A stretch of 58,088 bases of DNA from Acidobacteriota bacterium (lineage in GTDB: Bacteria > Acidobacteriota > Vicinamibacteria > Vicinamibacterales > UBA8438): the NCBI GenBank assembly GCA_009861545.1, contig VXME01000132.1:1-58088 (forward strand), in the 5' to 3' direction. Position 1 is the stretch's first letter; each line of letters starts with the position of its first letter. The position numbers and the translations under genes were made by a program. Under the pieces are notes generated by a model, which ran no database searches, was not told the DNA's origin, and saw only the letters and a program-made list of their open reading frames with translations. Shown here in pieces: positions 3,009 through 7,843 of this stretch.

Positions 3009-3443
3009 TCACCGCGCCGGCTGAATCGGTCCCGCCGCCGGGCGAGCCGTCTCGTCGACCTCGTAGCCTCTCGCCTTCCAGTCGTTCAGTGCGCAGAACT
3101 CGCCGGCGTCGTAACCGTTGGATCTGAAGAGCTCCGCAGCCCGGGAGCTCCGCCCACCGGCGTTTCAAAAGAAGACGAGCCGGATGTCCTTAGGAATATC
3201 CGGCATGCGGGCTTCGAGCTCACCCACCGGAATGTGGATCGAGCCGGGAATCGAGCCGCTCTCGACCTCGTAGTCCTCGCGGACGTCGATCAGCAGCACG
3301 TCGGCGCCGGCGTCGAGCTGGGCCTTCAGCTCGTCGACCTCGAGCCGCTCGGTCTGCGCGGCTGCCGGCGCGGCCAGCAGCAGGCCAAGCAGCGGAAGCC
3401 ATGCGGCAACCAGTGCCCGTTTCACGAATCGCTCCGTTCTCAT
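3009..3443 (-). CDS. Exported rhodanese with in-frame TGA at the catalytic position (candidate selenoprotein)
   Basis: A single-domain rhodanese. From the ATG at 3443 it has a signal peptide (hydrophobic core about residues 12-30, ending AAPAAAQ), then DVREDYEVESGSIPGSIHIP and LVFF, then a TGA codon at 3167-3165, and then NAGGRSSRAAELF, NGYD and LNDWKARGYEV to a TAG-free end at the TGA at 3009. Rhodaneses carry C-x4-R-S here, with the Cys forming the persulfide. The TGA takes exactly the place of that Cys (U-N-A-G-G-R-S), and the family pattern continues for 51 codons. Read through with selenocysteine the protein has 144 residues with Sec at 93; read as a stop it has 92 residues and no active-site loop. 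A hairpin fitting bacterial SECIS rules follows the TGA. The alternatives are a fresh nonsense mutation or a sequencing error. No selA, selB, selC or selD lies in the window. Confidence 0.7.
3129..3150 (-). promoter_or_regulatory. Candidate bacterial SECIS hairpin
   Basis: On the minus strand, 14 nt after the TGA of the rhodanese, GAGCTCC and GGAGCTC form a perfect 7-bp stem around the 8-nt loop CGGGCTGC, and a G-U pair could extend the base. The loop begins 21 nt after the TGA and has G at its second position. Bacterial SECIS elements lie immediately inside the coding region downstream of the UGA, with an apical loop roughly 16-37 nt away and a G among its first two bases, so position and shape fit. 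In a GC-rich genome short hairpins are common, so this supports the selenocysteine reading but does not prove it. Confidence 0.55.
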
Positions 3444-3679
3444 CGGTGGCACCTCGCTGTTGGAGATCGATAGTCGCTTGCCAGAATTCCGTCTGCTGTC
3501 GGCTCAATGATGCCTCATGCGGCGCATTCGCACCAGTCCGGCATGATCCTGCGCCTGCGAACCGACCATCGCCGACAACGAACCGACTCCGCCGGGCGCA
3601 CATGCCACAGTATCCTCCCGTCTTGCCGCTACAGAAACTTGACGAGCCGGTAGCCCGTCGATCATGCTCGCGCGGCAGC

Positions 3680-4843
3680 ATGCCTCTCGACACGACACTT
3701 GCCGACATCACGGTCCGGCTGCGCCAGAACGAGTTTCCGAACGAGCAGGCGATCTCTCAGGGAATCGTCCTCCGGATGCTCCAGGAGCTCGGCTGGAACA
3801 CGTGGGACACGAGTGTGGTCTGGCCCGAATACAAGACCGGCGGCGGACGAGCCGACTTCGCGCTGTGCAGCCCGCCCTCGAAGCCCGCCATCTTTATCGA
3901 GGTCAAGCATGTGGGCAAGGCCGAGGGCGCCGTACGACAGGCGCTTCAGTACGCCTTCGAGTGCGGCGTGCCGTTCGTCGTCCTGACCGACGGCAGGACA
4001 TGGAGTTTTTACCTCCCGGCCGAGCAGGGAGACTACGAAGATCGGCGCGTCTACAAGATCGACCTGTACGAACGATCTTCGAGCGAAGCCGCCGAGGCTT
4101 TCCGCCGCTATCTCTCCCGCTCGACCGTGGAATCCGGCAAGTCTCTCGAGGACGCGCGTACCGAGTACCGGAACCTCAACCGCCGTTCGCAGGCAAGGGC
4201 CGCCATCCCGGTTGCCTGGCAAGAACTGGTGGACAAGAGAGACGCCGGCCTCATCGAGATTCTGGTCGATACGGTGGAATCGAAGGTTGGGTTTCAACCC
4301 GACCCGAGCGACGTCGCGGGGTTCCTCGGCAACCTGCAAGCGTCCGCCCCGTCCCGCGTCCGGCTCGGGGACGCGCAGACTCGCGCTCGCTCTTCCGGAT
4401 TGGCGCCATCAGGTCCAGCCAGCCTGGGCGCATCCACTTCACCGAGGCCTCCTGCAAGCACGGGCAAGGCTCCCTTACCCGCGCCCAATCCACCGGTATC
4501 TCCGGGACCCCAGAGGCTCTCTGTTCGCGGCAAGGAGCACGACTTCAGGAACGCGAAGGACGCGATGGTTATCGTCCTTCGCGAGTTGGCCAGGACGGAC
4601 CCTTCTCTTCTCGAACGCTGCGCCGGGCATGCTGACGGTCAGGGCCGCAAGCGCCGGTACATTGCCCGGACACCGGAAGATCTCTATCCGGACCGCCCGG
4701 ATCTCCAGGACCGCTACGAGAAATTGCCCGGCGGCTGGCTGGTCATGACGAACATGAGCAACGAGTACAAGCGGAAGGTGGTCGAACTCGCCGTCAAGCT
4801 CGCCGGGTTGCAGGTGGGCACGGACGTCGTGGTCCCGTTCTGA
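3680..4843 (+). CDS. HSDR_N-like nuclease domain protein with a separate C-terminal domain
   Basis: From the ATG at 3680 the protein has 387 residues. The N-terminal half resembles the type I restriction R-subunit N-terminal nuclease. GIVLRMLQELGWNTWD is followed by an acidic position in GRADFALCS, by IFIEVKHVGKAEGAVRQALQYA (the E-x-K of the catalytic core), and by VPFVVLTDGRTWSFYLP. A Pro/Ser/Ala-rich linker (about residues 215-280) leads to a conserved-looking C-terminal domain of about 105 residues (SVRGKEHDFRNAKDAM through GTDVVVPF) that I cannot name. There is no helicase or methylase nearby, so this is an orphan nuclease-type protein. The frame is also open upstream of 3680, but that part overlaps the rhodanese promoter region and looks non-coding. 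Confidence 0.65.
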   Translation: MPLDTTLADITVRLRQNEFPNEQAISQGIVLRMLQELGWNTWDTSVVWPEYKTGGGRADFALCSPPSKPAIFIEVKHVGKAEGAVRQALQYAFECGVPFVVLTDGRTWSFYLPAEQGDYEDRRVYKIDLYERSSSEAAEAFRRYLSRSTVESGKSLEDARTEYRNLNRRSQARAAIPVAWQELVDKRDAGLIEILVDTVESKVGFQPDPSDVAGFLGNLQASAPSRVRLGDAQTRARSSGLAPSGPASLGASTSPRPPASTGKAPLPAPNPPVSPGPQRLSVRGKEHDFRNAKDAMVIVLRELARTDPSLLERCAGHADGQGRKRRYIARTPEDLYPDRPDLQDRYEKLPGGWLVMTNMSNEYKRKVVELAVKLAGLQVGTDVVVPF

Positions 4844-4882: not shown

Positions 4883-7843
4883 ATGGCAGCCGGCCGCGTG
4901 ACAGCCCGTCTGACCCGCCGCATCGGCGTCGCACTCATCGTCGCGTCCATCGCGATGACTCCCGCGGTTTCGGCTCAGGAACCGCGGACCCTCGCCGTAG
5001 CCCCGTTCACCAACATCAGCGCCGAGCCGTCCCGGAACTGGATCGGTGTGGGAATCGCCGAGACGGTCGGCACGGATCTGCGCGACGCCGACGGGATCGA
5101 CGTGCTCAGCCGCGCGGTCGTCGACGGGGCGGTCGCCAGCCTGGGCCGCGCGGGTTCCGGCGCTTCGGCCGAGCGCGTCCTGCTGGAGGTGGTGCGCGAG
5201 CTCGGAGCCGACTACGTGCTGGCGGGAGCGTTCCAGCAGCTCGGCGATCGACTGCGGCTCACCGCGCGGCTGATCGACGTCCAGAGCGAGACGGCGGTCG
5301 AGGCGTTCAAGGTCGACGGACGACTGGGCGACCTCTTCGAATTGCAGGATCGACTGACCCGCGAGGTTCGCGGTGCGGTGAGACGGATGCTCGGCCGGGG
5401 AGCCGGAACCCGGATCGCCTCCGACGGCGCGGCTCGGGAGAGCAACGGCAGCGGCAACGGCAACGGCGAGGGCGAAGTCCCGCTGCAGGCGGGCAACGGC
5501 AACGGCGCCGGGCGCTACGCTCGATACGACGAAGACGGCCCGAACGGCGGACTCAACGCCTCGACGTCAGCCGGACCGCGGGGCCTCTCACCAGGGACGG
5601 TTTCTGCGGACGGCAGCGGCGGCGCCGGCGGTGAGCTGCTGCTGGGTGACGCGTATGCGGCACGATCCGGGTCGGTGCCCGCGCCAGCGGCGCAGGCCGG
5701 ACCGGCAGCCGGCTTCGCGATTGGCGGCGGCCGGCGCAGCGTGCAGGCGCAACGGGCCACCGAGCCGCCCATCATCGACGGCCGGCTGGACGACGCAGCC
5801 TGGCGCGACGCGGTGCTCGTCACCGACTTCACCCAGACCAACCCGGTCGAGGGCGCGGCGCCGACCGAGCAGACCGAGGTGCGGATCGCCTACGACGCCG
5901 ACCACCTCTACTTCGCCTTCTACGCACACTACACCGACCCGACCCAGATACGGGCGAACCGTGCCGACCGGGACCAGCTCCGGCGCGACGACTGGATCGC
6001 GGTGATGTTCGATCCGTTTCTCGACCAGCAGCGCGCGTATCGCTTCTCCGTCAACGCCTACGGGATCCAGGGGGACGCCATCCTCCGGGGCGGCCGGAGC
6101 ATGCGCGGGCCGCCGGGGGGCGGCGGCGATTCGTCCTGGGACGCGCTGTTCGAGACCGGCGGCGCCATCGTCCACGACGGATGGACGGCCGAGATGGCGA
6201 TCCCCTTCAAGAGCCTGCGCTATCCGTCCCGCGGCGCCGGCGAGCACCGCTGGGGCTTCCAGATCACCCGCACCCTGCAGACCAAGGACGAGACCCTGGT
6301 CTGGGCGCCGATGACGCGGGCCGTCGCGGGCGTCCTCACGCAGATGGGCACGCTGGGCGGCTTGCGCGGCCTGTCGGTGAGCAGGAACCTGGAGATTCTC
6401 CCGACCGCGACCGCCATTCAGCTCGGCCGCCTGACCGACACCGGCTACGTGGAGGACGACACCCAACCCGACCTCGGGTTCAACATGAAGTACGGCGTCA
6501 CGTCGAACCTCACCGCCGACTTCACGCTCAATCCCGACTTCTCGCAGATCGAGGCGGACCGCCCGCAGATCGAGACGAACCAGCGGTACGCGCTGTTCTT
6601 CCCCGAGCTGCGGCCGTTCTTTCTCGAAGGGCAGGAGATCTTCCGCACGCCGGGCCGTTCGAATCTGGTCCACACCAAGACCATCGTCGACCCGCAGATC
6701 GGCGCCAAGCTCACCGGCAAGACCGGCAACACGACGCTCGGGGTGCTCGTCGCGAACGACGCGGCGCCCGGCAAGCTCGACGACGCAAGCGATTACGGCT
6801 TCGGCGAGACGGCGAACTTCGTCATCGGGCGCGCCCGCTACGATCTCTACTCGCAGTCGTACATCGGCGCGATCATGACCGACCGCGAGTTCCTCGACTC
6901 GTACAGCCGGGTGGCGGGGGTCGACGGGCGGTTCCGGCTGGGCCAGACCCACCGCGCGCAGTTCCTGGCGGTCACCTCGTCGCACCGCGACCTCGACGGC
7001 ATCGCGGGGAGCGGACCGATGTTCAACGCCGAGATCCGGCGCGACAGCCGCCACCTGAGCTACAGCCTCGACTTCAACAGCATCGACCCGGACTTCCGCA
7101 CCGACGCCGGCTTCGTCCGCCGCGTCGACATGCAGCAGCTCGACGCCGACGTCGAGTACCTGTGGTGGCCCGAGAGCTGGCTGATCAGCTGGGGACCGGA
7201 ATTCCGCTACCGGCGGAACGTCGACCATGCCGGGACCCTGCAGGACGAGGACTTCCGCGCCGACATGAGCCTGCGGTTCGCGCGCAACATCTTCTTTCGC
7301 GCCGACGCGCAACGGGAAATGGAGCGCTTCCAGGGCATCGACTTCCACAAGACCCGCTTCTCGATGCGGAACGGCATCAACACGAGCCGGCGCTTCTCGC
7401 TGTTCTACGGCATGGACTGGGGCGAGCAGATCCGCTTCGTCGAGAACCCGTTCCTCGGCCGCATGTTCGACTACAACGTCAGCCTGACGCTGCTGCCCAC
7501 CTCCCGTCTCAATTCGCAGTTCCGTCTCGACACGGCCCGCTTCGCCGACATGCACACCGGCGAGCTGGTCTTCGACGTGAAGATCCTGCGCACGTTCACG
7601 ACCTACCAGTTCACCGACCGCCTCCTCGTGAGGAACATCCTGGAGCACAACACGGGCAACGGGAAGGTGGGGATCAACCTCCTGTTCACCTATCGCGTCA
7701 ACGCAGGCACGGCCTTCTACATCGGCTACGACGACCGGTTGCAGGAGGGCATCTACCTGGACAGGGAGCGGTTCTACAACCACGACCTGCAGCGGCAGCA
7801 GCGCGCGTTCTTCACGAAGCTGCAGTACCTGTTCCGCTATTGA
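4883..7843 (+). CDS. DUF5916 protein with TolB-like N-terminal and CBM9-like domains
   Basis: A 986-residue exported protein with three parts. After the signal peptide (to about residue 31, VSAQ) comes a domain of about 150 residues, starting RTLAVAPFTNISAEPSRNWIGVGIAETV, of the TolB/FlgO-like type often seen in stress-related proteins. A Gly/Asn/Ser-rich linker follows. From about residue 285 there is a CBM9-like domain (PPIIDGRLDDAAWRDA, then DHLYFAFYAHY). The remaining 500 residues are the DUF5916 region, with alternating hydrophobic strands ending in LQYLF-R-Y, as expected of an outer-membrane beta-barrel. The function of DUF5916 is not established; an outer-membrane location is likely. 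A TAGAAT hexamer (4879-4884) overlaps the ATG, so the GTG at 4898 is a real alternative start and also gives a good signal peptide. Joining the TolB-like part to DUF5916 is unusual to me. Confidence 0.85.
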   Translation: MAAGRVTARLTRRIGVALIVASIAMTPAVSAQEPRTLAVAPFTNISAEPSRNWIGVGIAETVGTDLRDADGIDVLSRAVVDGAVASLGRAGSGASAERVLLEVVRELGADYVLAGAFQQLGDRLRLTARLIDVQSETAVEAFKVDGRLGDLFELQDRLTREVRGAVRRMLGRGAGTRIASDGAARESNGSGNGNGEGEVPLQAGNGNGAGRYARYDEDGPNGGLNASTSAGPRGLSPGTVSADGSGGAGGELLLGDAYAARSGSVPAPAAQAGPAAGFAIGGGRRSVQAQRATEPPIIDGRLDDAAWRDAVLVTDFTQTNPVEGAAPTEQTEVRIAYDADHLYFAFYAHYTDPTQIRANRADRDQLRRDDWIAVMFDPFLDQQRAYRFSVNAYGIQGDAILRGGRSMRGPPGGGGDSSWDALFETGGAIVHDGWTAEMAIPFKSLRYPSRGAGEHRWGFQITRTLQTKDETLVWAPMTRAVAGVLTQMGTLGGLRGLSVSRNLEILPTATAIQLGRLTDTGYVEDDTQPDLGFNMKYGVTSNLTADFTLNPDFSQIEADRPQIETNQRYALFFPELRPFFLEGQEIFRTPGRSNLVHTKTIVDPQIGAKLTGKTGNTTLGVLVANDAAPGKLDDASDYGFGETANFVIGRARYDLYSQSYIGAIMTDREFLDSYSRVAGVDGRFRLGQTHRAQFLAVTSSHRDLDGIAGSGPMFNAEIRRDSRHLSYSLDFNSIDPDFRTDAGFVRRVDMQQLDADVEYLWWPESWLISWGPEFRYRRNVDHAGTLQDEDFRADMSLRFARNIFFRADAQREMERFQGIDFHKTRFSMRNGINTSRRFSLFYGMDWGEQIRFVENPFLGRMFDYNVSLTLLPTSRLNSQFRLDTARFADMHTGELVFDVKILRTFTTYQFTDRLLVRNILEHNTGNGKVGINLLFTYRVNAGTAFYIGYDDRLQEGIYLDRERFYNHDLQRQQRAFFTKLQYLFRY

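Follow-up and report, generated by a model that had tools for sequence, protein, structure and literature searches.

A rhodanese of Acidobacteriota that very probably carries selenocysteine at its catalytic position, with an invariant partner cysteine

Introduction

Rhodaneses that are selenoproteins have been on record since 2005 (PMC1088965, PMC2398784), and the statement on marine representatives in an earlier, model-made reading of the DNA studied here, which used the letters alone (below, the sequence-only reading), was correct (PMC1088965, PMC2398784). Five forms of rhodanese selenoprotein are distinguished in a 2026 review, in whose text Acidobacteria are absent, and whose table gives no second cysteine for forms 2 and 4 (PMC13188914). 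No paper was found by a literature search pairing Vicinamibacter with selenoprotein.

Among the described proteins, form 2 (PF00581/COG0607, UxxG, MBM9537886.1; PMC13188914, PMC9312934) fits by motif and domain number: like the protein reported here, it has a single domain and selenocysteine (Sec) in a UxxG motif (U93-N-A-G96 in our case). On this comparison of motif and description, our subfamily may be form 2 itself. Form 4 (COG2897 SseA type, MCY3690685.1), first reported from the Sargasso Sea (PMC1088965), is also a UxxG Sec rhodanese, but it is classed in COG2897/cd01449, the SseA family, usually composed of two domains, whereas ours has one. Form 1 (WP_010941598.1) is likewise a rhodanese-like protein with Sec, but its motif is UxxS instead of UxxG. 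In form 3, represented by NF041203 (rhodanese_LYCAU, CxU), Sec stands two residues after a Cys, whereas no Cys precedes it in our protein. Although NF041203 is the best-scoring Sec family model in NCBIfam, identity with it was rejected, as our protein reaches 38.3 bits against a cut-off of 115 and has U-x4-R without CxU. Identity with form 5, NF045694 (TsoB), was rejected as well (17.7 bits against a cut-off of 805, and a length of only 144 amino acids); a rhodanese domain with Sec is what the two have in common, but TsoB is a rhodanese/DsbD fusion with two Sec residues in UxxxxU. Finally, the single-domain sulfurtransferases PspE and GlpE share with our protein the fold and the six-residue C/U-x4-R loop, but they have Cys in place of Sec, and our protein falls below their cut-offs (22 bits against 102). 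Sec rhodaneses are already known; what is new here is a single invariant Cys at Sec+24 in the Sec proteins.

Results

A rhodanese frame interrupted by one TGA

The window, that is, the whole stretch of 58,088 nucleotides that was analysed, contains on its minus strand a rhodanese frame running from 3443 to 3009 (Table 1). It consists of 145 codons, giving a product of 144 residues with Sec, and its sole internal stop is the TGA at 3165-3167, surrounded by the motif LVFF-U-NAGGRS. The sequence-only reading had placed this TGA at the active-site Cys of a rhodanese, and both reading of the frame and a Pfam match confirm it: the read-through product matches Rhodanese (PF00581) with an E-value of 2e-14 and 54.3 bits, the gathering cut-off being 22.2. 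Equally borne out is the rhodanese C-terminus of 51 codons past the TGA, including NGYD and W-x-x-RGY. The six-residue loop U-N-A-G-G-R is that of a normal sulfurtransferase with Sec93 in place of the catalytic Cys, and both U93 and R98 are invariant among 14 orthologues. The predicted mature protein has no cysteine other than Cys117. This small acidobacterial rhodanese, with predicted export to the periplasm, very probably carries Sec as the catalytic residue.

Table 1. Positions of the Sec-rhodanese gene and its features in the window
Feature	Position	Strand	Basis
Sec-rhodanese gene	3009..3443	(-)	frame and orthologues; terminal stop TGA 3009-3011
ATG start	3441-3443	(-)	
In-frame TGA, predicted selenocysteine, residue/codon 93, catalytic position	3165..3167	(-)	TGA in all subfamily members
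bSECIS-compatible hairpin GGAGCTCC-CGGGCTGC-GGAGCTCT, loop 21 nt past the TGA	3128..3151	(-)	covariation in distant members
Cys117 codon, partner cysteine invariant at Sec+24	3093..3095	(-)	alignment of Sec and Cys rows
Arg98 codon, active-site loop U-x4-R	3150..3152	(-)	invariant in orthologues
Rhodanese domain, residues 36-111	3111..3338	(-)	Pfam match
Probable signal peptide (KR, hydrophobic stretch, APAAA/Q)	3357..3443	(-)	judged from the sequence by eye
Shine-Dalgarno-like GAGG, 8 nt upstream of the ATG	3452..3455	(-)	sequence

Conservation of the TGA and of the tail behind it

A search for the protein covered 28 genomes from the family of the host and found an orthologue in 16, the host included. 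At the homologous column, which the sequence-only reading had singled out for inspection, all 16 orthologues have TGA at the equivalent of codon 93 and never another stop codon; neither TAA, TAG nor TGC occurred at the Sec column in any subfamily member examined. Since 15 other genomes of the family have TGA at the same codon, with no further stop within the matched stretch, sharing of this codon cannot be ascribed to chance. In 15 genomes the contig extends to the gene's end, and there the tail past the TGA comprises 50-53 codons; its dN/dS (0.18-0.32 in seven computable pairs) is similar to that of the upstream part; by this measure, the tails of about 51 codons are under purifying selection. 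One of the orthologues sits on a contig of 6.1 Mb. The remaining 12 of the 28 genomes have no orthologue, yet most of them keep selB.

Seen in one genome, a frame intact but for a lone stop is what one would expect of a pseudogene or an assembly error, in which a true TGC or TGT was mutated or misread as TGA. However, independent genomes share the identical TGA, which is also seen in further families of the phylum, and selection extends past it. Mutation or sequencing error is refuted by the orthologues, which share the TGA and have constrained tails, and its probability is practically negligible. It is also highly improbable that the TGA is a real stop, or that weak readthrough places Trp or some other residue there. 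Nothing favours this except the stop codon itself, whereas conservation of the tail would have no explanation if the product were truncated ahead of the active site, and Sec machinery is present in the host genome. Reassignment of the code was dropped, because TGA is also the terminal stop of this gene and of several orthologues.

Selenocysteine machinery

The host assembly (6.35 Mb in 174 contigs, 99.3% complete) was checked for the genes of Sec synthesis and insertion, as the sequence-only reading had suggested. It contains selA (531 bits), selD (294 bits) and tRNA-Sec (selC; 59.6 bits, anticodon TCA). Also present is selB (274 bits), represented by its N-terminal part only, the frame leaving the contig end after 331 codons (locus L011, 2-994, host contig C24); the C-terminal domain of SelB (PF09107) was not found in the host assembly. 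In genomes of the same genus, selB is complete. The host selD (locus L017, 1387-3864, host contig C27) is fused behind an N-terminal half resembling FAD/NAD oxidoreductases, in one frame of 825 codons.

In the phylum sample described below, selB (E≤1e-60) was found in 12 of the 14 genomes with the Sec rhodanese, the other two being 72% and 75% complete. Such co-occurrence alone is weak evidence, since selB is common in the phylum (256 of the 396 Acidobacteriota genomes sampled); as far as gene content tells, use of Sec is widespread in Acidobacteriota. For the TGA of our gene, insertion of Sec in vivo appears nearly certain, with all the support that comparative data can give.

A candidate recoding hairpin

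According to published rules, a bSECIS hairpin has a loop of 3-9 nt with G in the first two positions, lying 16-37 nt from the UGA, and a stem of 4-16 bp with an energy of ≤ -7.5 kcal/mol (PMC13188914). A hairpin conforming to these rules was found downstream of the TGA in 27 of 27 members tested. In the host, the stem GAGCTCC/GGAGCTC has 7 bp, or 8 when a G-U pair is counted, so that the hairpin predicted in the sequence-only reading, with respect to both stem and loop distance, was recovered as bSECIS-compatible and with covariation in distant members.

This hairpin is supported by its geometry, by conservation at synonymous sites and by covariation, but not by folding stability: over the 51 nt after the TGA, folding energy did not go beyond that of synonymous shuffles (mean z -0.36). 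For single genes, the hairpin has p of 0.02-0.25 against synonymous shuffles, which is weak per gene in GC-rich DNA, and an Rfam scan of the gene returned no family matching it, only a chance hit. The codons GCG GAG CTC TTC at U+10 to U+13 are invariant in all 16 orthologues of the family, though every one of them has synonyms, and the window of nine codons from U+5 to U+13 is, by a small margin, the least variable of the gene in these orthologues. In seven members of the distant ITAU group, double compensatory changes are seen in three stem pairs, all of them in the third position of codons in either arm. The covariation score of these seven is 0.446 against 0.144 in shuffled alignments, none of 500 shuffles scoring as high, and it is 0.10 or less in slid registers. 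In members of the VFYU type the stem is almost invariant, and hence uninformative for covariation.

Distribution in the phylum

Profiles built from the family orthologues found more members with TGA, some within the host's order and some in further families of the phylum. In the phylum sample, an eight-row profile was run against 396 Acidobacteriota genomes; it gave 14 matches at 108-174 bits, all with TGA, while the remaining matches, at 91 bits or less, were all Cys rhodaneses, mostly inside longer frames. Relatives outside the profile search were taken from the 80 best tblastn matches from a species-level genome collection, and among these matches the relatives belonged to Acidobacteria/Vicinamibacterales. 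Neither the phylum profile sample nor these 80 best matches contained a Cys version of this clade. In a tree of 70 rows, computed from only 108 columns and rooted at the midpoint, a branch with support of 98/95 divides the 29 Sec rows from the 41 Cys rows. The gap in bit scores and the grouping of the Sec rows make the Sec trait consistent with one origin.

A further rhodanese-like frame with one internal TGA (G001:C148:1266-1490) was encountered outside the score range of the Sec clade; it might be of a second kind or have an ordinary stop.

The partner cysteine

The comparison covered the region that starts about 60 residues ahead of Sec and ends about 40 past it. There, each of the 31 Sec rows contains exactly one Cys, always at Sec+24 and within the motif (F/Y)-C-(G/A/V/P)-(L/I). 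In contrast to them, none of 88 Cys-type rhodaneses has a Cys in the +24 column or within four columns on either side; they show in this region the usual motif of the N-L-x-G-G kind.

The AlphaFold model (mean pLDDT 74) has a rhodanese fold, with Z of 10-14 to rhodaneses in structure comparison (14.1 to 3flh) and 3gk5 as the best Foldseek match. Its strands 88-92 and 112-116 end immediately before Sec93 and Cys117, respectively, which places Sec93 at the end of strand 4 and Cys117 at the end of strand 5. In the rhodanese fold, the strands ahead of these two positions are neighbours, and therefore both residues should, according to the model, face the same pocket. A conserved TGA together with one conserved partner cysteine across the subfamily suggests a selenium-sulfur redox switch. 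A selenosulfide role had been put forward as a possibility in the sequence-only reading, and this putative function gains specific support from the invariant Cys at Sec+24.

Discussion

The best explanation of our results as a whole, to which we assign a probability of roughly 0.6, is that the gene encodes an exported Sec rhodanese, in which Sec insertion is directed by the hairpin, and which works via a selenylsulfide between Sec93 and Cys117. SelB and tRNA-Sec would insert Sec at the TGA under direction of the hairpin at 3128-3151. In the periplasm, the selenolate of Sec93 would attack a sulfane-sulfur substrate or an oxidised sulfur or selenium species, both the export and the substrate being presumed. 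Cys117 would then resolve the adduct, with formation of the Sec93-Cys117 selenylsulfide and release of the reduced product, and a periplasmic thiol donor would reset the enzyme. Sec, together with one invariant Cys, the retained sulfurtransferase loop and the probable signal peptide, suggests a periplasmic enzyme taking or reducing sulfane sulfur or oxidised species of sulfur or selenium. For the Se-S bond between Sec93 and Cys117 taken by itself, we consider the chances to be about even.

The main rival of this mechanism is a plain thiosulfate or persulfide sulfurtransferase, in which Sec93 would carry a selenosulfide (Se-S-) intermediate through the normal rhodanese cycle, and Cys117 would be structural or only protective. 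The length of the loop and the invariant Arg98 are indeed as in active sulfurtransferases, and the fold resembles that of PspE/GlpE-type and persulfide-handling rhodaneses. Nevertheless, we regard such an enzyme as rather unlikely, for it leaves unexplained why the lone Cys occurs in every one of the Sec proteins and in none of the Cys rhodaneses compared. Another possibility would be an antioxidant enzyme similar to thiol peroxidases, with Sec93 reducing peroxides and the resulting selenenic acid being resolved by Cys117. It would employ the same U...C pair, and it would fit the fact that selenoproteins of known function are mostly antioxidant or redox enzymes (PMC9312934, PMC13188914). However, the rhodanese anion-cradle loop is wholly retained, which favours sulfur or oxyanion substrates, and no peroxidase-like feature was seen; a peroxidase is thus an improbable alternative to the selenylsulfide mechanism.

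A broader proposal, which we make tentatively and hold to be somewhat doubtful, is that these proteins form a Sec-obligate rhodanese subfamily of one origin, with no Cys version and always with Sec-x23-Cys, in which a sulfurtransferase fold would have been turned into a periplasmic selenylsulfide oxidoreductase in Acidobacteriota. Since the phylum sample yielded no Cys version, and Sec is invariably accompanied by a second Cys, the clade provides a clean test case for the question of why certain proteins are unable to return from Sec to Cys. It also provides a hypothesis on how Sec alters rhodanese chemistry, open to test by two point mutants, and it brings one more protein whose translation, under the standard code, would end ahead of its active site.

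The genomic neighbourhood was also considered as a clue to function. The upstream gene for a DUF5916/CBM9 protein and the downstream alpha/beta hydrolase gene are kept next to the Sec rhodanese in close genera only, and no conservation of synteny was found beyond these; for this reason, neither a partner gene nor a substrate was inferred from the neighbours. The DUF5916/CBM9-like protein (4883-7843 of the window, plus strand) has 986 residues and a weakly FlgO-like N-terminus; in close genera, it is encoded next to the Sec rhodanese in divergent orientation. Also divergent to the Sec rhodanese is the gene at 3680-4843 (plus strand), which encodes a lone protein with a weak match to HSDR_N, the N-terminus of type I restriction R-subunits.
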